The notes beneath the pieces were generated by a model. It saw only the letters and a list, made by a program, of their open reading frames with translations, did no database searches and was not told the DNA's origin. A stretch of 64,000 nt of DNA from Paramacrobiotus metropolitanus. Its lineage: Eukaryota; Tardigrada; Eutardigrada; Parachela; Macrobiotidae. The translations under genes and the position numbers were made by a program. The first letter of the stretch is position 1, and every line of letters starts with the position of its first letter. Location: contig NW_026570264.1 of NCBI RefSeq assembly GCF_019649055.1, forward strand, positions 310,001 to 374,000. Direction: 5' to 3'. This document shows, piece after piece, positions 67 through 62,332 of this stretch.

Positions 67-2251
67 ATGACGGCGCACAGTGAACCGCACGAGATCGGCT
101 CGTTTTCCTGGAGCACCGCGCCATCTGTGCAGCATCTACTCTATCACGACGACCGCAGTGGTCTAAGGGAGCTGCATCGTCGCGGCCGACCGGGACAGAC
201 CCTGGTTGAGGAACTGTTTATTCCGCTCGATAAGGGGCGCCCAACCGAATCAATCCAAAAGAATCCCGGGCCCGGTTTGGAGCTGTTGCTACACTGGATG
301 CAGCGTCATCCCCACAGTGTCGTTAAACATTCGTAAGAACACTGCTTTGTGCTTGGTGACGCTGTTCTGTTTGGAACTGGAAGTTGGTTGTACTTTAGGT
401 GCCATGCAACGATCATCTGCTGGCGTGACGTTCTACACAAAGTTATAGTGACACCATACGAGAGACTGAAAGGTAATGCAAGACTTTACATTTCGGCAAT
501 AACGAAAAGTCTTTACGATATTCTACTATCTGGTGGGGGCAGGCTGGATAATTTACGCATGCAACGTCGATGGCCAAATCTACCTGTCTCTCAAGGAACC
601 GGGCCTTACTGCAGCCCGGAGTGGTCAATCCCGAGATGCTCACTGGTACGTCAGCTGCAGCAAATCTGATTGGTTATTTGGACACAACTTTACAACTTAT
701 GCCACTATTCCCTTGCGTCACATTAAATGTTATTGTTCTATTAAGAGCAGTTTACGTGTTTTTGTATTTAAACGAGCATGCGGGTATCAGAATGAATGCG
801 AAGACTGAACACGGTTTTATCTTGTGACCTTAGTGTATGCGAGCTTGCAAATCACTAAAATTTTGGTCCGCTAGTCTGTCTGTTCAGCGGTCCCACGGAA
901 CGGGAGTTAGGCAGGCTGATATTCTACTGGAGATTTTTAAAGCTATGTACCGGGATAGTTAACTTAATGTTTGGGTGCTGTAGTCTTAAAATCGAAGACA
1001 GCACGACATAAAGTTTTCGATGCGGACCTAATTTCAGGCAGCGCAGTTTCCAGCATTACATGACCAGTCCACCGCAGCGTCCCGAATCTCTCCCGGCATC
1101 TCCCTCCACCCGGCATTTTTGCTCCGTAACCAGCACAACAGTCGGTAGCACGACGGTAATTTCCGGTGGCGTGGTGGTCTGCTTCGATCCCGGCAAACTG
1201 CACATTTCTCCGCCGCAGTGCTACGTCCAGTTGCATATCGAGCAGCGAGCGGATGAAGAGAATCTCTGGCGCAAACTGTGGTCAGTGAAGTAATAATTAT
1301 TATTTCAGTTTGGCTATTCCGGCGCGTTTGTGCAAGGATCTTTGTTAACCGGTTCTGTATAGGGACCATAGTATGCGCTCCATATGGGCGGAATGCTTTC
1401 TGTCCGGCACACCAAAGGTCATCATCGGCTACCATGACCAGCTGGGACATGTGTCCATGACAGAGGAACTGCGGACGGCCAAAATTCCGGCTTTGACGAA
1501 ATGCCACAAAGTCGGTAGAATATATGTATCAAGACATATACATATTGTGTGTGTAGAACATATATGTATATGTTGTTTCAAGACAAGGAACAACAAACGC
1601 TTCAAACTGAATTTTAGTACAGTAATTTACGTTTACAGCAAAAAGAAAACACCTGGTCGGACTCCGTGTGTCTGGGCTATCTGCGGACCTTTGCAGATTT
1701 GGTGACGCAGACGGTTACCGACGACTACAATGAGTAAGCGGCAGTTACGACACCGGTTAATATTTAAGACATAATTAATAACTAAGTACCTAATATCCGT
1801 CAGTAATCAAGAATTATTTTGTGGGTCCACATTACGCCATAGCATAAAAGTGTCCAGCTTGCAGCAGTACAGAATTACAGTAGTTAGAGGCTAGAGCAGC
1901 ATTTCATAATTTTTGTCAGAATTTAGTTAATTCGGGAATAAATATAAATTCGAAGATACGCTAAAAATCAGCAGAACAAACATATATCAGTTTGTTTACA
2001 AACAATATATAAATACTAAAATAATTACCTTAATTTTTGCCATTTTCTTATTTTAAAAAAAAATATAAACTATCGGATTCAAGCATTTTAATAGGGGATT
2101 TTTTATTTCATGTAGAGCGACATACACATTCGAATGGGATGCCGTCAAGAGCGATACCATCACTGTGGAGCGGTTACCTAACGAATCTCAACACCGGTTC
2201 CTACCGGCGTGGTATCTGGCGCAACCGCCTTCGCCACCGGCAAATCATTAA
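67..2251 (+). CDS. DXO: DXO/RAI1-family decapping protein, catalytic residues lost
   Basis: Seven exons with matching phases: 67-332, 399-472, 543-645, 1038-1280, 1372-1510, 1639-1733, 2116-2251; 351 residues. DXO/RAI1 enzymes remove incomplete or NAD caps from RNA 5' ends and degrade the body. Family landmarks appear in order: EIGSFSW near the N-terminus, CWRDVL...TPYE (about 96-111), GW..Y...VDGQIYLS, the PPQCYVQLH strand (206-214), W-ECFLSGTPKVIIGY, W..SVCLGYL, and the typical C-terminal end FLPAWYL. Length is close to the usual 350-400. The metal-binding E-x-D motif reads V193-V-V195 and the E-x-K motif reads Q212-L-H214, so hydrolase activity is unlikely; a binding or scaffold role is inferred. 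ATG 67 is used because upstream ATGs are out of frame. An AATAAA lies at 2478-2483. All introns are GT/AG. Confidence 0.9.
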
Positions 2252-3235: not shown

Positions 3236-3302
3236 TCTCAGGCCGAAAACCAAAATAATAAGCCGACAAATAAGCGAGAAAGCGGTCGCATCACAGTCGT
3301 TT

Positions 3303-6300
3303 TCATTCGCGCACCAGTCGCAGCACATTGGGAATCCGTTCGCGTTCCTCCAGCGTCTCGGCCGGGATGCGCTGCAGGAAGGGTTCATCCAGCAGGGCCA
3401 TCTCGCGGTCGGCGGCCACGGCGCACTCCTGGATGTTGGTGATGATGCCGGCGGCGGTCCAGTCGCTGCGGACCAGGGCGTGCTCCAGGGTGAAATTACC
3501 GCAGCGGATGCGCCGCAGCCGCGTCACCACGGCGCTGCACTTGCAGTCTTCGGCGATGTCGTTGATCATCTTCATTAAAAACCTGTGCAAAATACATATA
3601 TGACCATTAATAAACTGCTATTAATTTAATCAGTATCTCTTTTTTATTATGTATTAGTAATAAGCATAGCGAAAATATTTTTTGTAATTAATATAAACAA
3701 TATTTCTGGTAAAAAAATTAAAAAAAATTAACACTGACGAATTTATTAATTATTAACTAATTAATCAATGCAATTGCAGTCTTCCCGCGATGTCGCTCAT
3801 CATCTTCATTAAAACCTGCAAAACAGTATCTTCTACAAATTAACGGAAAAAAATAATCCCTATCATTAAAAAAATATATGTCTTGCGCAAACCAAAGAGA
3901 AGTTAGTGCAGTGAGAGACGTTAGAAGCCAATGCAGATGTTCAACGTGAATTGATATCAACTTCCTGCCGCTGCACTACGATCAAACCCGGTTTGTACCG
4001 AGTGCGTATGAAAATCACACAAATCGTTGACATTATCTCTATGCAAAGACTAACGCTCTGTAGCCCAAATTCAATTTAATTAAAAATAAAACAATAAAAA
4101 ATAATGCTTCTAATTTCTTAAATATAATAAAAATAATAATACGAATTTCACGACGGAAAGTTGCAATTATTTTGTAGATATTCACAAATTAAAAAAATAT
4201 TCTCCATAGTATCGTAGGAAAATTGCCGAATGAATTTCTGAAGTTCGTAACCAGAAGGAAAAATAATTTCCTTTAAACTGAGAACTAAACGTACGTGTCA
4301 GTCTCGTTGATGCAGTGCACCTCCACGGTGAAGTAGGGCGGCTGGAAGTCCACCAGTTTGAGCCGGTAGATGAGCTGCAGGGAGTCGTCGCGCGGGCGCA
4401 CCAGGCCGCGGGCGCGCAGTTCATAGGCGGTCTGACTGCGCGGATCGACGCCGTAGGATGACTGGATGTGCCGCTGGAACTGGCCTTGGTAAAAGGTCAA
4501 GAAGCGCTCCAGCCGGCCGCGCGTCACATGACTGAAGGTCGTCCGCTCCAGGACGCGGCCCGTCTGCAGGTAGTTGGTGGTGCGCAGGCCGAATTTACCC
4601 TGGATGTGGTACGCTGCGGGGAAGGGAAAACATTATTTTTCTGTGAATAACCATTAATCGAATTATTATGGGCCTGAAAACATTGTAGTTATTTTCATTT
4701 ACTGTTGGGGAAATATTTAAAAAATTCTCAATCTTTACGTGACCGGTTATTACAGTAATTATTCATTCATTTCAATAATTTTTTTTATTAATTGAATTTA
4801 TTAATTTGCGCGTTGATTAATTTATCTACATTCTCAAATAATTATTCATTTATCAACAGTTATTAACATGTTACACGTGACCAGTTATTTTTTGGTACTA
4901 ATTTACGGCACATTAGCTGTATCATTGTAAGTGGATGCAGGAAACAAAATACTTTACATGACACATAAAAATATTTTGATAATACATGACAGTTCGGTTA
5001 CCGATTCCAAAAATTCCACAAAAATTGTCGTAAATATTAAACAGTTATTCAAGTGTGTTTATTGGGCAATAGCCGCCATAACAACAAAAGTGCAAGCGCG
5101 GGCACACTACTTTACAGTTAAAATTTAAACATTAAAAAAACAACCAAAATCAATATCCGCCCGCGGGTTAAAAGGCAACGTACTTAACACAGCAGTAGCA
5201 TTTCCCTTAATGACAGCCAAACTAAAACGTTGCTTCATAAAAGCAGTAGAACGCGCTTCTCCAGTTAATTCACGAGTTTTACGGCCCATAAAATGTACAA
5301 ATTCACTTAAAGCTAGGCCAAAGACACCGAACGTTTCAACAACTATTCAAGTTACTTATTTTTATTCAAGTTACTTATTTTTTAGTTATTCAAGTTACAT
5401 ATTTTTATTACTTACAGTGATGCAGATACACATATCTGAAACAAGGGTGGCACTGGTAAAGATCTCGAGGTAATTATGCCGCTGCACTACGACTGGTTAC
5501 CCCTTATTAGACGCGGTACAGTGGTAACTACTACCTAACTATTGTAGTAACTATGGAGAACTGAATAAAAGTATTATCGAGAGAAAAATTAATTACCCAG
5601 AGAATCACCAATAAACCGATTCTATCATATACTGTACGAGTAGTAACAGTGTAGTTTCTTCTTAAAATTCAGAATTAAATTTTCAGAATAAGACTTGAGA
5701 AAGCAATTTCCTTTTTAATACGAGTAAATTCGAACTCTCAACACGCATCACACTTCCACGTTACGAATAAATCTTTTAAAAAATATTATTCAAATTTTCA
5801 ATGCTAAACAAAAATTAAAACTTCTGTTTCAATCGACATCGTTTCTTTCAATTTCGAAAACAGCCAACACTATACACAGTAAAAATTAATAGAAGTTGTA
5901 ATACGGTAAAATTATGACAAAATATGGTAAAATTATTACGTAAGAAATTAAACTAAACTGATTATGTACAAAAATAAAAGACCTGGTTAACAGATTGTGC
6001 AGTGTCAAAATCAAAAAATTCTGCAGTAGGTAAACAGGCAGAAAGTAAAATGTATGGAAAAAGGGAATGTTAATACTGTAAACTTCTGTTTGTTAATCTA
6101 AACATTACTGCGAAATTTGGGAGACCGACACATGCTGCGCCACTGTTCTACGAAAATTACCGGCAGCAACCAAAAGTCCGAAACACGATAAATGAAAAAA
6201 AAAAAACTGCCAAAAAATACAAAATAAACAAAAAATTCCAAATCTATTCCACCAAGAATTTAAGTAATGTTTTCACCTGTTCGAACATACACCAACAAAA

Positions 6301-57200: not shown

Positions 57201-58554
57201 CATACTGTATGCGCGATGGAGGCGTTGCCCTGAGGAAATAATACTTCTTCATAAAAATTAAGTTAACCTGTACCGTACGGTCATCATGCAGTGCGTGTAT
57301 GACAGTGCTGGGGAAGACGAACGCCACAAAGTTTGCACATTTTGACAGCGAAAGCGGTTATCATGTTGCTGACGTTGGCAGAACTGTGCGAGCGCTGGAA
57401 CTCCAAATGATATTTTAGGAAGCAAGCTCTTTCGACCGATAAACTAAAGAATGCCCGGTGAAACCATTCAAAGCGATCTAAGAAAAACCGCATTTGTATC
57501 ACACCGACACGCTATGACCGAGTCAATATCCATTGCATAGACTGTTTTCCGGAAGCACGTCACTGACAAATATATAATCGTCTAAATTCCTGGAATTATT
57601 TAATGTTATCCTACTTCGCAAATTTGGCGGCGCTTTGCATGATCATAAGACAAAACGACTGTAAACAATGCTTTCCCCTTCATATCCTCTATAGAGGTGG
57701 TAACAGGTACACAGGTCCAATCATCCCATGTCTAAGCATTACGTATTGATCTCGGCTATTAATTCGCCTCCAAGGCACTGGAAGACATTAAGCAAGACGC
57801 TTTGCTGCATATTCCTTATTTTTAAGTTTTCTGTTCCAAAGGATTATCATAATACTGTAATATCCTACAATCATCACAATTCAAATGCGTTTGCATTAGC
57901 GAGGCAGTCATACTTAATATCATGAATTATTAGACCCCGTCAGTATTACGTTTCAATATGACGTTTATTTAATTTTTAAATTCTCCATCCATGACAAACC
58001 TACAGCCTTCTTGTTACGAAAAATCTGACCTTGTGGCTTGTATGACGATGTACTGCTGCAGATTTTGCGTCCAGCAGTTCGTACAGATATGCTGTGAAAA
58101 CGTGGGTACTGTATAAGGTAATGCTGCCTAATTAGTGGTTAAATAACGCCGTTATGACAGGTTTCTCCATGTACACTCTCAATGCCAAATGCTGTATCAT
58201 CCGCTCTAAAACGGCAGTATATTGCGTGATCGACAGAGATTAACCGTCACGGACAAAACTGCATATTGTATGGCTGCTGTTCCGCCAGCTCTTCTACTAA
58301 AGTGGCTCATTGTCCCATTTTCCGGGAAAATTTCAACATTATTGTTATTATTTCCGCAGAAACGGAAGCCCTCCAGATGGCACATCTACCTACACTGCGT
58401 CGGTTTCTCCGTTCTCATTTGCCAACAAGGAGCGTTACATGATACCCTATACGGACGTATAACTACCATGCTTCCAGCATAAATTCTTGCAGATTGTCTC
58501 CGCACTGTGGGAACAAGAAAATACGTTCAATCTGGGCGGTGAATAATTACCGCC
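57201..58554. other. Intergenic, 5' flank of the receptor gene
   Basis: No exon, repeat family or clear promoter element was recognised. Confidence 0.4.
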
Positions 58555-59694
58555 ATGAACGCCACGAACGACAGTTTTTTATTGTTTAACAGCACTAAAT
58601 TTACCTCGACGCCCTCAACAGAACTGTTAACATTATGGGCGTCCTGGTACCTAACTTTCTGTTACGGAGGCGCCGTTTCCAACAGCCTGGTAGCCGGGTT
58701 AATCCTCGCCAACGTCCGGCTGCGTGCCGGTTGCGGACTGCTCATCGGACACTATCTTATCGCGCATGCCGCACTGTGTTTTCTCAGCTATCCGGCCATC
58801 GGCATCATGATTTACCAGAAACTGATGTTGCACTGGGATTTGGAGATCCGCTTCTGCGGCATTCTCATGTGGATCCACATGACCATCCGCTATGCTGGCA
58901 ACTGGATCGAAAGCTATGTTGCCATAAATCGCCTCGTCGCGCTGTGTTTTCCCTTCCAATACCGGCGTTTTGCCAATCAGCGATTAGAGCAGTTAATGGT
59001 GATTGTCTTGTGGGTGACGGCGGGATGTCTTGCGTGCCTCGGGTGTTTTGATCTGGGCGTGGTCTACGCCAAGAGCCCGCTGGGCAGTTGTGGAATCTTA
59101 CAGAAAGATGGTTTCGGTGTGTTGACCTTTGTGGTGGGATACTACGGTCCGCTGGGCGTGGCGGCGGCTGCTTACTCGGTAATCTACCTCAAGTTATTGC
59201 TGGACCGGCGAAGGCGGAAGAAGATCCGACAGGCAAACCAGCGGAACGGGTTTCAAAAACCGAACCGAAAACGGGTGGTGAAGGCTAACATGATGTTTGT
59301 GGCGTTTTTATGGAACAGCGTATGCTATTTGGTTTGGCCAATGACGTTGACAGTGTCGCCGGAGCTGCAGCGACAGCGTCCGTTGGTGGCATTGTTGTTG
59401 GGATCACTGCAGATGGTTGGCTACGTTACAAACCCGGTAACGTAATGATGTTAAATGAAACATTAATCAGGCTTTTCTATGGATGCTTTATTTGCTAAGG
59501 GAAGCAGCGCAAATCGAAATCAGCTTCGTAGTACTTTCCTGAACTCTAAAGCCAAGTTATATGAAAGAAAGCAAATAAAATTTGTAAGAGAATCTAGTTT
59601 TTGCAACGATTTTTGTTTCTCTTGTCTTCCTAGATACCTGTATGTGTTCTTTGATATAAATTTGCTATCAGGTCAGATGATAATCTTGATTTAG
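58555..59694 (+). CDS. Class A (rhodopsin-like) G-protein-coupled receptor
   Basis: The main exon 58555-59436 encodes 294 residues with seven hydrophobic segments (about 29-52, 61-86, 103-130, 147-170, 188-214, 245-266, 276-293). The N-terminus has three N-glycosylation sites (N2, N5, N12). C101 and C179 fit the conserved disulfide. The DRY position reads N125-R-L, helix 1 has SNSLV instead of GNxxV, helix 6 ends LVWP (W261-P262), and helix 7 ends TNP. A 64-bp GT/AG intron (59437-59499) followed by 59500-59694 in phase would add an RNQLRSTFLNSK segment, typical of the helix-8 region, giving 358 residues. Without it the frame stops at 59445. NPxxY would then read NPGSS. Ligand unknown. ATG context is CCGCCATGA; AATAAA at 59851-59856. 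Confidence 0.87.
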
Positions 59695-61300: not shown

Positions 61301-62177
61301 TAGCAGAAGCGGCATTACCCCTTTGAACTGGTAATGAAATAATATTCTGCCTTAAAACTCATAGCTTCTTATCTCGCCGGTTTGTAACTCGATCCTCCTT
61401 CCGACTTCTTTGAGCAGCTTCTTAGCCGATGTACCAAAACTACCAAAAGTCTCGAAACCAAAAGCGGCAAACTCATATCGTCCTGACAGGAAGCTGTACT
61501 TCTTCATTTTTTCCGCTTCAGCATGGTCGGCTGCCGCTCCGGCCTTTACGCTGGTTAGGTCCAAGTGAGAGCGGGCGACAGTGTCGACGCAGGTTACGTC
61601 CCATGCTAAGCATAACCCTCGGGCCCAAGGGAAGGTAGTGATTCCATCTGGGCGTGTGTCGTTTTCGTAGTGCATACCTCTAGGCTCCGTTCGCGCGGGG
61701 ATGCCTGCTGAACCCAAAGCCCGACGCAGAATATCGTTGATGCAGTCGTGTCTTGGCCTTCTTCCAGCTGAAAATTTGCAACTTAGGCCATGGTGGCCGT
61801 TAGCGGCGACATCGGTACCACACCTGCACTGGTGTTTGGCGGAAACAGTTGCGCCCAGACGAATGGCAACGGTGATGCGGAAAGATTCGTCGTCCAGGAG
61901 ATTACCGATGGAGGACGAGGGTAGTGCGTGGGTCCATACACCGGACTCTGGTGTTGAAACAGCCAGCAGCCGTGTTTTGTTAGTGGCATCTGACGCTTCG
62001 TACAGCAGAGTTGCCTGCTCTGCTAAACAGTAAGGCGTATCCCAAGCACGTTGTAAATGTCTGCTTTCGGAGAGAGGCGGCGAAGCGTCGTCAGAGAGAT
62101 AGCTCCAAAGTGCAATGTGGTCATCCGCGGCAACTCCTGTTGAGTGTGGCAGTAGTTTGGAAACCAGGCTACGGGTA

Positions 62178-62332
62178 TGTCGTGTACGTTGCTTTCCTAG
62201 CAACTACTGTTTTACTTCTTACTTCTTTTTGCTGCACTTTCTGTCATTCTACCTGCTGCGCGGTTCCTGTTCACTTCATTAATTATGTAGTATTAATTAA
62301 CTATTAAAGTATTACTTATACAATACTTCACA
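62178..62332. repeat. Left LTR of TRIM element
   Basis: 155 bp, TGTCGTGTACGTTGC...ATACTTCACA; it differs from the right LTR at only a few positions, so the insertion is fairly recent. Confidence 0.95.

Follow-up and report, generated by a model that had tools for sequence, protein, structure and literature searches.

DXO enzymes police RNA 5' ends, and the conserved motifs I-VI of the DXO/RAI1 family have been defined (PMC4513879). Mammalian DXO (Dom3Z) carries all six motifs and is an active decapping and deNADding exonuclease. According to the available text of PMC13213243, metal 1 of mouse DXO is bound by D236 and E253 and metal 2 by E192 or E234, K255 may activate the attacking water, and phosphates are contacted by R132 and Q280. 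Most animals have one DXO homologue; C. elegans has a lineage-specific expansion to 10 or 11 homologues, with tandem copies (accessible portions of PMC7735679 and PMC13129544). EOL-1, a member of this expanded worm family, acts in RNA surveillance and in antiviral RNAi according to the accounts given there, and a member of the family has a place in antiviral and stress responses. EOL-1 is judged in the same sources to act through its active site, and E197K, at the site matching DXO E253, is described as a loss-of-function allele (PMC13129544). Fungal Rai1 belongs to the same family, keeps its active site, and binds and stimulates Rat1, as stated in the available parts of PMC6769589 and PMC10511037. 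Among the open-access papers listed in our searches, none was on a DXO pseudoenzyme judging by title and start of abstract, although one may be published elsewhere, and no open-access paper contained both words, tardigrade and DXO.

A seven-exon DXO/RAI1 gene in a tardigrade genome

The window analysed here is a stretch of 64,000 nucleotides from the tardigrade Paramacrobiotus metropolitanus (NW_026570264.1, positions 310,001 to 374,000). Profile-guided spliced alignment placed a DXO/RAI1 gene at window 67-2251 on the plus strand, encoding 354 residues plus stop in seven exons; in a trial on the intact paralogue at locus C49 with mouse DXO as the query, the same aligner also returned a seven-exon model. 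Exons 1 and 2 lie at 67-332 and 399-472, exon 3, taken from the spliced alignment, at 543-645, exons 4 and 5 at 1038-1280 and 1363-1510, exon 6, likewise from the spliced alignment, at 1639-1733, and exon 7 at 2116-2251, all on the plus strand. The first and last exons were lengthened by hand to the ATG at 67-69, which has an in-frame stop upstream at 58-60, and to the TAA stop at 2249-2251, with the next AATAAA at 2478. The coding frame contains no stops, and all six introns have GT-AG borders, in agreement with the seven in-phase exons of a preliminary description of this DNA.

The end-to-end DXO/RAI1 homology claimed in the same description also held. The predicted protein matched PF08652 with 173.7 bits against a curated cut-off of 26.8, over residues 6-343 of the protein and positions 2-332 of the 333 in the profile, and its best relatives among solved structures were DXO/Dom3Z chains (E 4e-33). 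It aligns with mammalian DXO from end to end at 27.4% identity over 321 columns, and the human DXO gene likewise has 7 exons (accessible text of PMC6769589). The intron phases, 2,1,2,2,0,2, match those in two paralogues, C120 and C49 (loci are labelled by contig, with a and b marking separate genes at one contig), and the three genes have their introns at equal alignment columns, apart from shifts of at most 4 columns in the first two. When the genome was searched at the DNA level for an allele or a nearly identical duplicate of the window gene, the gene itself was the only match.

Active-site residues

Residues were compared in mouse DXO numbering, taken from chain 10yz with the match starting at residue 46; the letters at 131-133, 192, 234, 236, 253-255 and 280 agree with the mouse residues named in the available text of PMC13213243. 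In exon 2, W97-R98 (421-426) corresponds to mouse W131-R132 of motif I and is kept, with G133 changed to D99. Motifs II, III and IV, all in exon 4, are degenerate: Q153 (1051-1053) replaces the motif II Glu (E192), V193-V194-V195 (1171-1179) replaces the E-h-D of motif III (E234, D236), and Q212-L213-H214 (1228-1236) replaces the E-h-K of motif IV (E253, K255). Motifs V and VI, in exon 5, are degenerate as well, with S232 (1370-1372) in place of the motif V Lys (K273), E239 (1391-1393) in place of the motif V Gln (Q280) and H253 (1433-1435) in place of the motif VI Arg (R294). The only key motif residue surviving in the window protein is the motif I Arg (mouse R132, here R98). The preliminary description had given the VVV and QLH replacements with exact residue numbers (VVVC from 193, QLHI at 212) and the kept neighbours correctly (C196 within VVVC, PPQCYV at 206). 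Its loss of four ligands (E234V, D236V, E253Q and K255H) is confirmed but was understated, as E192Q, K273S, Q280E, R294H and G188Q are also changed.

An altered exon 4 boundary or a sequencing error had been raised as a way in which the acidic motifs might be restored. Exon 4 aligned end to end, the other two plus-strand frames contain two and three stops and no E-x-D/E-x-K pair, and motifs III and IV are each separated from both borders of exon 4 by 14 residues or more. Neither a boundary shift nor a single frameshift would therefore restore the motifs, and a sequencing error, a frameshift or a wrong exon boundary was excluded as the source of the replacements.

The loss of active-site residues in the window protein is focused, more than expected by chance. 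When invariant columns were taken from the four nearest intact proteins (mouse, C120, C49 and C146), the window protein kept 1 of 9 catalytic or contact residues and 42 of 57 other invariant residues (Fisher p = 0.0006). Of the 15 further losses, six (residues 186, 188, 189, 190, 193 and 256) fall within or next to motifs II and IV. With columns from seven intact proteins, none of 7 catalytic or contact residues was kept, compared with 15 of 18 others (p = 0.00025). The losses of metal ligands, catalytic Lys and phosphate contacts, together with the EOL-1 E197K allele, whose site is Q212 in the window protein, argue strongly for loss of hydrolysis. Judged from these residues, the window protein would very probably not hydrolyse caps or RNA.

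A different reading of the same residues is that the pocket has been remodelled, with H154, H214, E239, H253 and W97-R98 binding a nucleotide cap or another metal, and that the protein is an enzyme with a new activity or a sensor. Mouse K255 and Q280 are both within hydrogen-bond distance of one ribose hydroxyl in the accessible account of that structure (PMC13213243), from which H214 and E239 may sit side by side, and the W131-R132 pair is kept. Single window-like changes recur in the family (E at 280 in C138a and C138b, H at 294 in C28 and C138a, Q at 253 in C65). No other family member among the 12 distinct ones compared, however, has this combination of residues, and we consider a remodelled pocket of this kind quite improbable.

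The DXO family of the genome and its tree

We searched the one genome (169.8 Mb, 533 contigs) for further family members. PF08652 gave 23 exon matches, a protein search using C138a added a cluster at C79, and gene modelling resolved at least 13 distinct DXO loci. Motifs II-V are intact in six (C120, C49, C146, C142 and two at C94), and seven are degenerate (the window gene, C28, C65, C138a, C138b, C79a and C79b); a poorly modelled fragment at C79 near 530 kb was excluded from all counts. That fragment (L023) belongs to a further gene of the K-h-D type described below, and its first exon alone models well. The second copy with intact motifs that the preliminary description suggested looking for is present: C120 and C49 carry all motifs, and C120 is the nearest relative of the window gene both by identity (~41%) and by tree path. 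Among the six intact-motif loci, the motif I Arg is absent in three (A, N and S in its place) and W stands at motif VI in two; these two positions vary even among likely enzymes. The two neighbouring genes at C94, with motifs II-V intact, have counterparts at C319 with ~99% DNA identity (L012/L014 and L013/L015), which are either allelic or the product of a recent duplication. Apparent frameshifts in the C94b model are missing from the C319b model, and the near-identical C94a/C319a pair gave an uninformative omega of 1.25 (p = 0.74).

Five of the degenerate genes, C65, C138a, C138b, C79a and C79b, form a clade with support of 100/100 in the 14-row tree described below, at C138:243432-249183, C65:359246-360843, C79:498542-500900 and C79:538346-544160 (L017, L019, L022 and L024). 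Their models are stop-free, and C138a and C138b lie side by side. In all five, K-h-D replaces E-h-D, D236 is kept, and E253 and K255 are lost; E192 is kept in four and is Asp in the fifth. Two pairs within this clade are under constraint (omega 0.046, a saturated value, and 0.262; p < 1e-15 each). C79a and C28 were outside the dN/dS tests. C28, with A-I-D and D-F-T motifs, sits on a long branch and is modelled with less certainty; metal binding might persist through its Asp at 253.

Trees were built from 12 rows (5 degenerate) and from 14 rows (7 degenerate), with the near copies C319a and C94b left out of both. The window gene grouped with mouse DXO, C120, C49 and C146, with bootstrap values of 83-91 at the forks holding it, none of them starred, in the 14-row tree. 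Its terminal branch is long, at 1.22 and 1.17 changes per column in the two trees. The window gene shares a phase-1 second intron with C120, C49, C94a and C142; this intron is absent at that place in C146, C28, C65, C138a and C138b. A clade of the window gene, C120, C49 and C146 that excludes mouse DXO was rejected in the 14-row tree (p = 0.02), which puts mouse DXO inside this group, although long branches may contribute to the rejection.

A single origin of all degenerate members appeared in 0% of 200 bootstrap trees for both row sets, and the AU test gave p = 0.077 (5 of 12 rows degenerate) and p = 0.106 (7 of 14) for it. AU tests did not reject the window gene with C138a, C138b and C65 (p = 0.174) or the window gene with C120 alone (p = 0.122), both in the 12-row tree, and gave p = 0.362 for the six degenerate rows without the window gene in the 14-row tree. 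The tree placement and the second-intron pattern together favour two or more origins of the putative pseudo-DXO genes, with a single origin not rejected by the AU tests. The window gene would have arisen by duplication within the animal-type DXO lineage, with C120 as its nearest relative.

Selection on the window gene and its possible role

Because synonymous sites are saturated, the omega values given below for the window branch are rough. In a quartet codon model, omega was 0.185 on the window branch and 0.044 elsewhere, and the fit differed from omega = 1 by 2dlnL of 6.03 (p approximately 0.014); the likelihood profile is flat, with omega 0.39 lying 0.8 and omega 0.78 lying 2.4 log units below the best. 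Six trio fits gave window-branch omegas with p < 0.05 in five and p = 0.065 in the sixth. Over all seven fits the window-branch omega ranged from 0.029 to 0.210, the same range as in the trios, and was below 1 at p < 0.05 in six, an average over the whole branch before and after active-site loss from which the share after the loss is not separable. A dN/dS near 1, named in the preliminary description as evidence against a maintained gene, was not what these branch fits returned.

We also asked how long an open frame would persist under neutrality. The omega = 1 fit requires 1.19 neutral changes per codon. In simulations without indels, with the coding sequences of the living paralogues C120 and C49 standing in for the ancestor, neutral change over this distance left 0 of 2000 frames stop-free from either start, and half the distance left 6 of 2000 (C120) and 0 of 2000 (C49).

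These results bear on relaxed decay, in which a redundant DXO duplicate has lost its active site, is heading towards a pseudogene, and is open by chance or recency. The terminal branch is long, omega = 1 was not rejected at 0.05 in one of the seven fits, and omega on the window branch exceeded that of the intact relatives (0.185 against 0.044), a difference that was not significant (2dlnL 3.31). Such a long, faster branch makes partial relaxation possible. Against decay stand the empty outcome of the neutral simulations at the omega = 1 distance from either starting gene, the kept borders and positions of six introns, and the concentration of losses in the active site, and we regard it as unlikely. 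With its open frame, conserved introns and low branch omega, the window gene does not look like a pseudogene. The earlier suggestion of a maintained pseudoenzyme drew support from the open seven-exon frame, the focused active-site loss, the branch fits and the simulations. In our view this complete tardigrade gene probably encodes a pseudoenzyme of the DXO/RAI1 fold that selection has retained, most likely as a non-catalytic regulator or adaptor.

Such a protein would retain the fold core and the Trp-Arg of motif I while having lost metal ligands, catalytic Lys and RNA-phosphate contacts, and might serve RNA 5'-end surveillance without catalysis, regulating the active DXO paralogues or acting as an adaptor alongside them. 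Tentatively, it could do so through protein partners or through weak shielding of 5' ends. The loss of K273 and R294 and the presence of two acidic residues, D99 and E239, close to the phosphate site argue against RNA shielding and favour a protein partner. MUS81-EME1-type pairs also keep a dead paralogue beside an active nuclease; they differ from this case in belonging to another family and in forming an obligate heterodimer.

The partner suggested as an example in the preliminary description was XRN2; on this reading the protein would be an animal counterpart of Rai1, a structural activator of that exonuclease. Fungal Rai1 provides the precedent through its binding and stimulation of Rat1, and the genome has XRN_N matches at two loci. 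However, the accessible part of a review (PMC10511037) judges animal DXO unlikely to bind XRN2, with the interface residues absent, and names XTBD proteins as XRN2 partners in animals; the genome has one XTBD match. The claim did not stand up well to these points, and we consider XRN2 activation very unlikely.

For a regulator or adaptor kept by selection, the expanded DXO family of C. elegans appears to be the nearest parallel, with the difference already noted that EOL-1 is judged to use its active site. By analogy with that expansion, tardigrade DXO-based 5'-end surveillance might include at least two separately evolved classes of maintained pseudo-DXO (the window gene, and the K-h-D clade with at least five genes). 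Together with six or more genes in which motifs II-V are intact, these would detect or control RNA that is non-self or metabolite-capped, a broader scheme that we hold to be somewhat unlikely. Were the active site lost in 7 of 13 modelled genes with at least several of them still constrained, the DXO fold would have a second, non-catalytic job, and these genes would offer a natural separation-of-function set in a culturable animal for finding it.

Elsewhere in the window, a TruB-type pseudouridine synthase gene (PF01509; protein translated by eye) adjoins the DXO gene at approximately 3300-4620 on the minus strand, and a rhodopsin-family 7TM receptor (PF00001) occupies a single 300-aa open frame at 58543-59445 on the plus strand. 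A 283-aa open frame at 61352-62203 on the minus strand had no Pfam match at E 0.001; by eye it resembles the final part of a retroelement polyprotein. To our knowledge, CAHS proteins are restricted to tardigrades. CAHS-like matches were found at 17 places in the genome with an approximate query, the best at 62% identity (E 4e-30), which marks the genome as that of a tardigrade, and the available text of PMC11609603 describes CAHS proteins from tardigrades.
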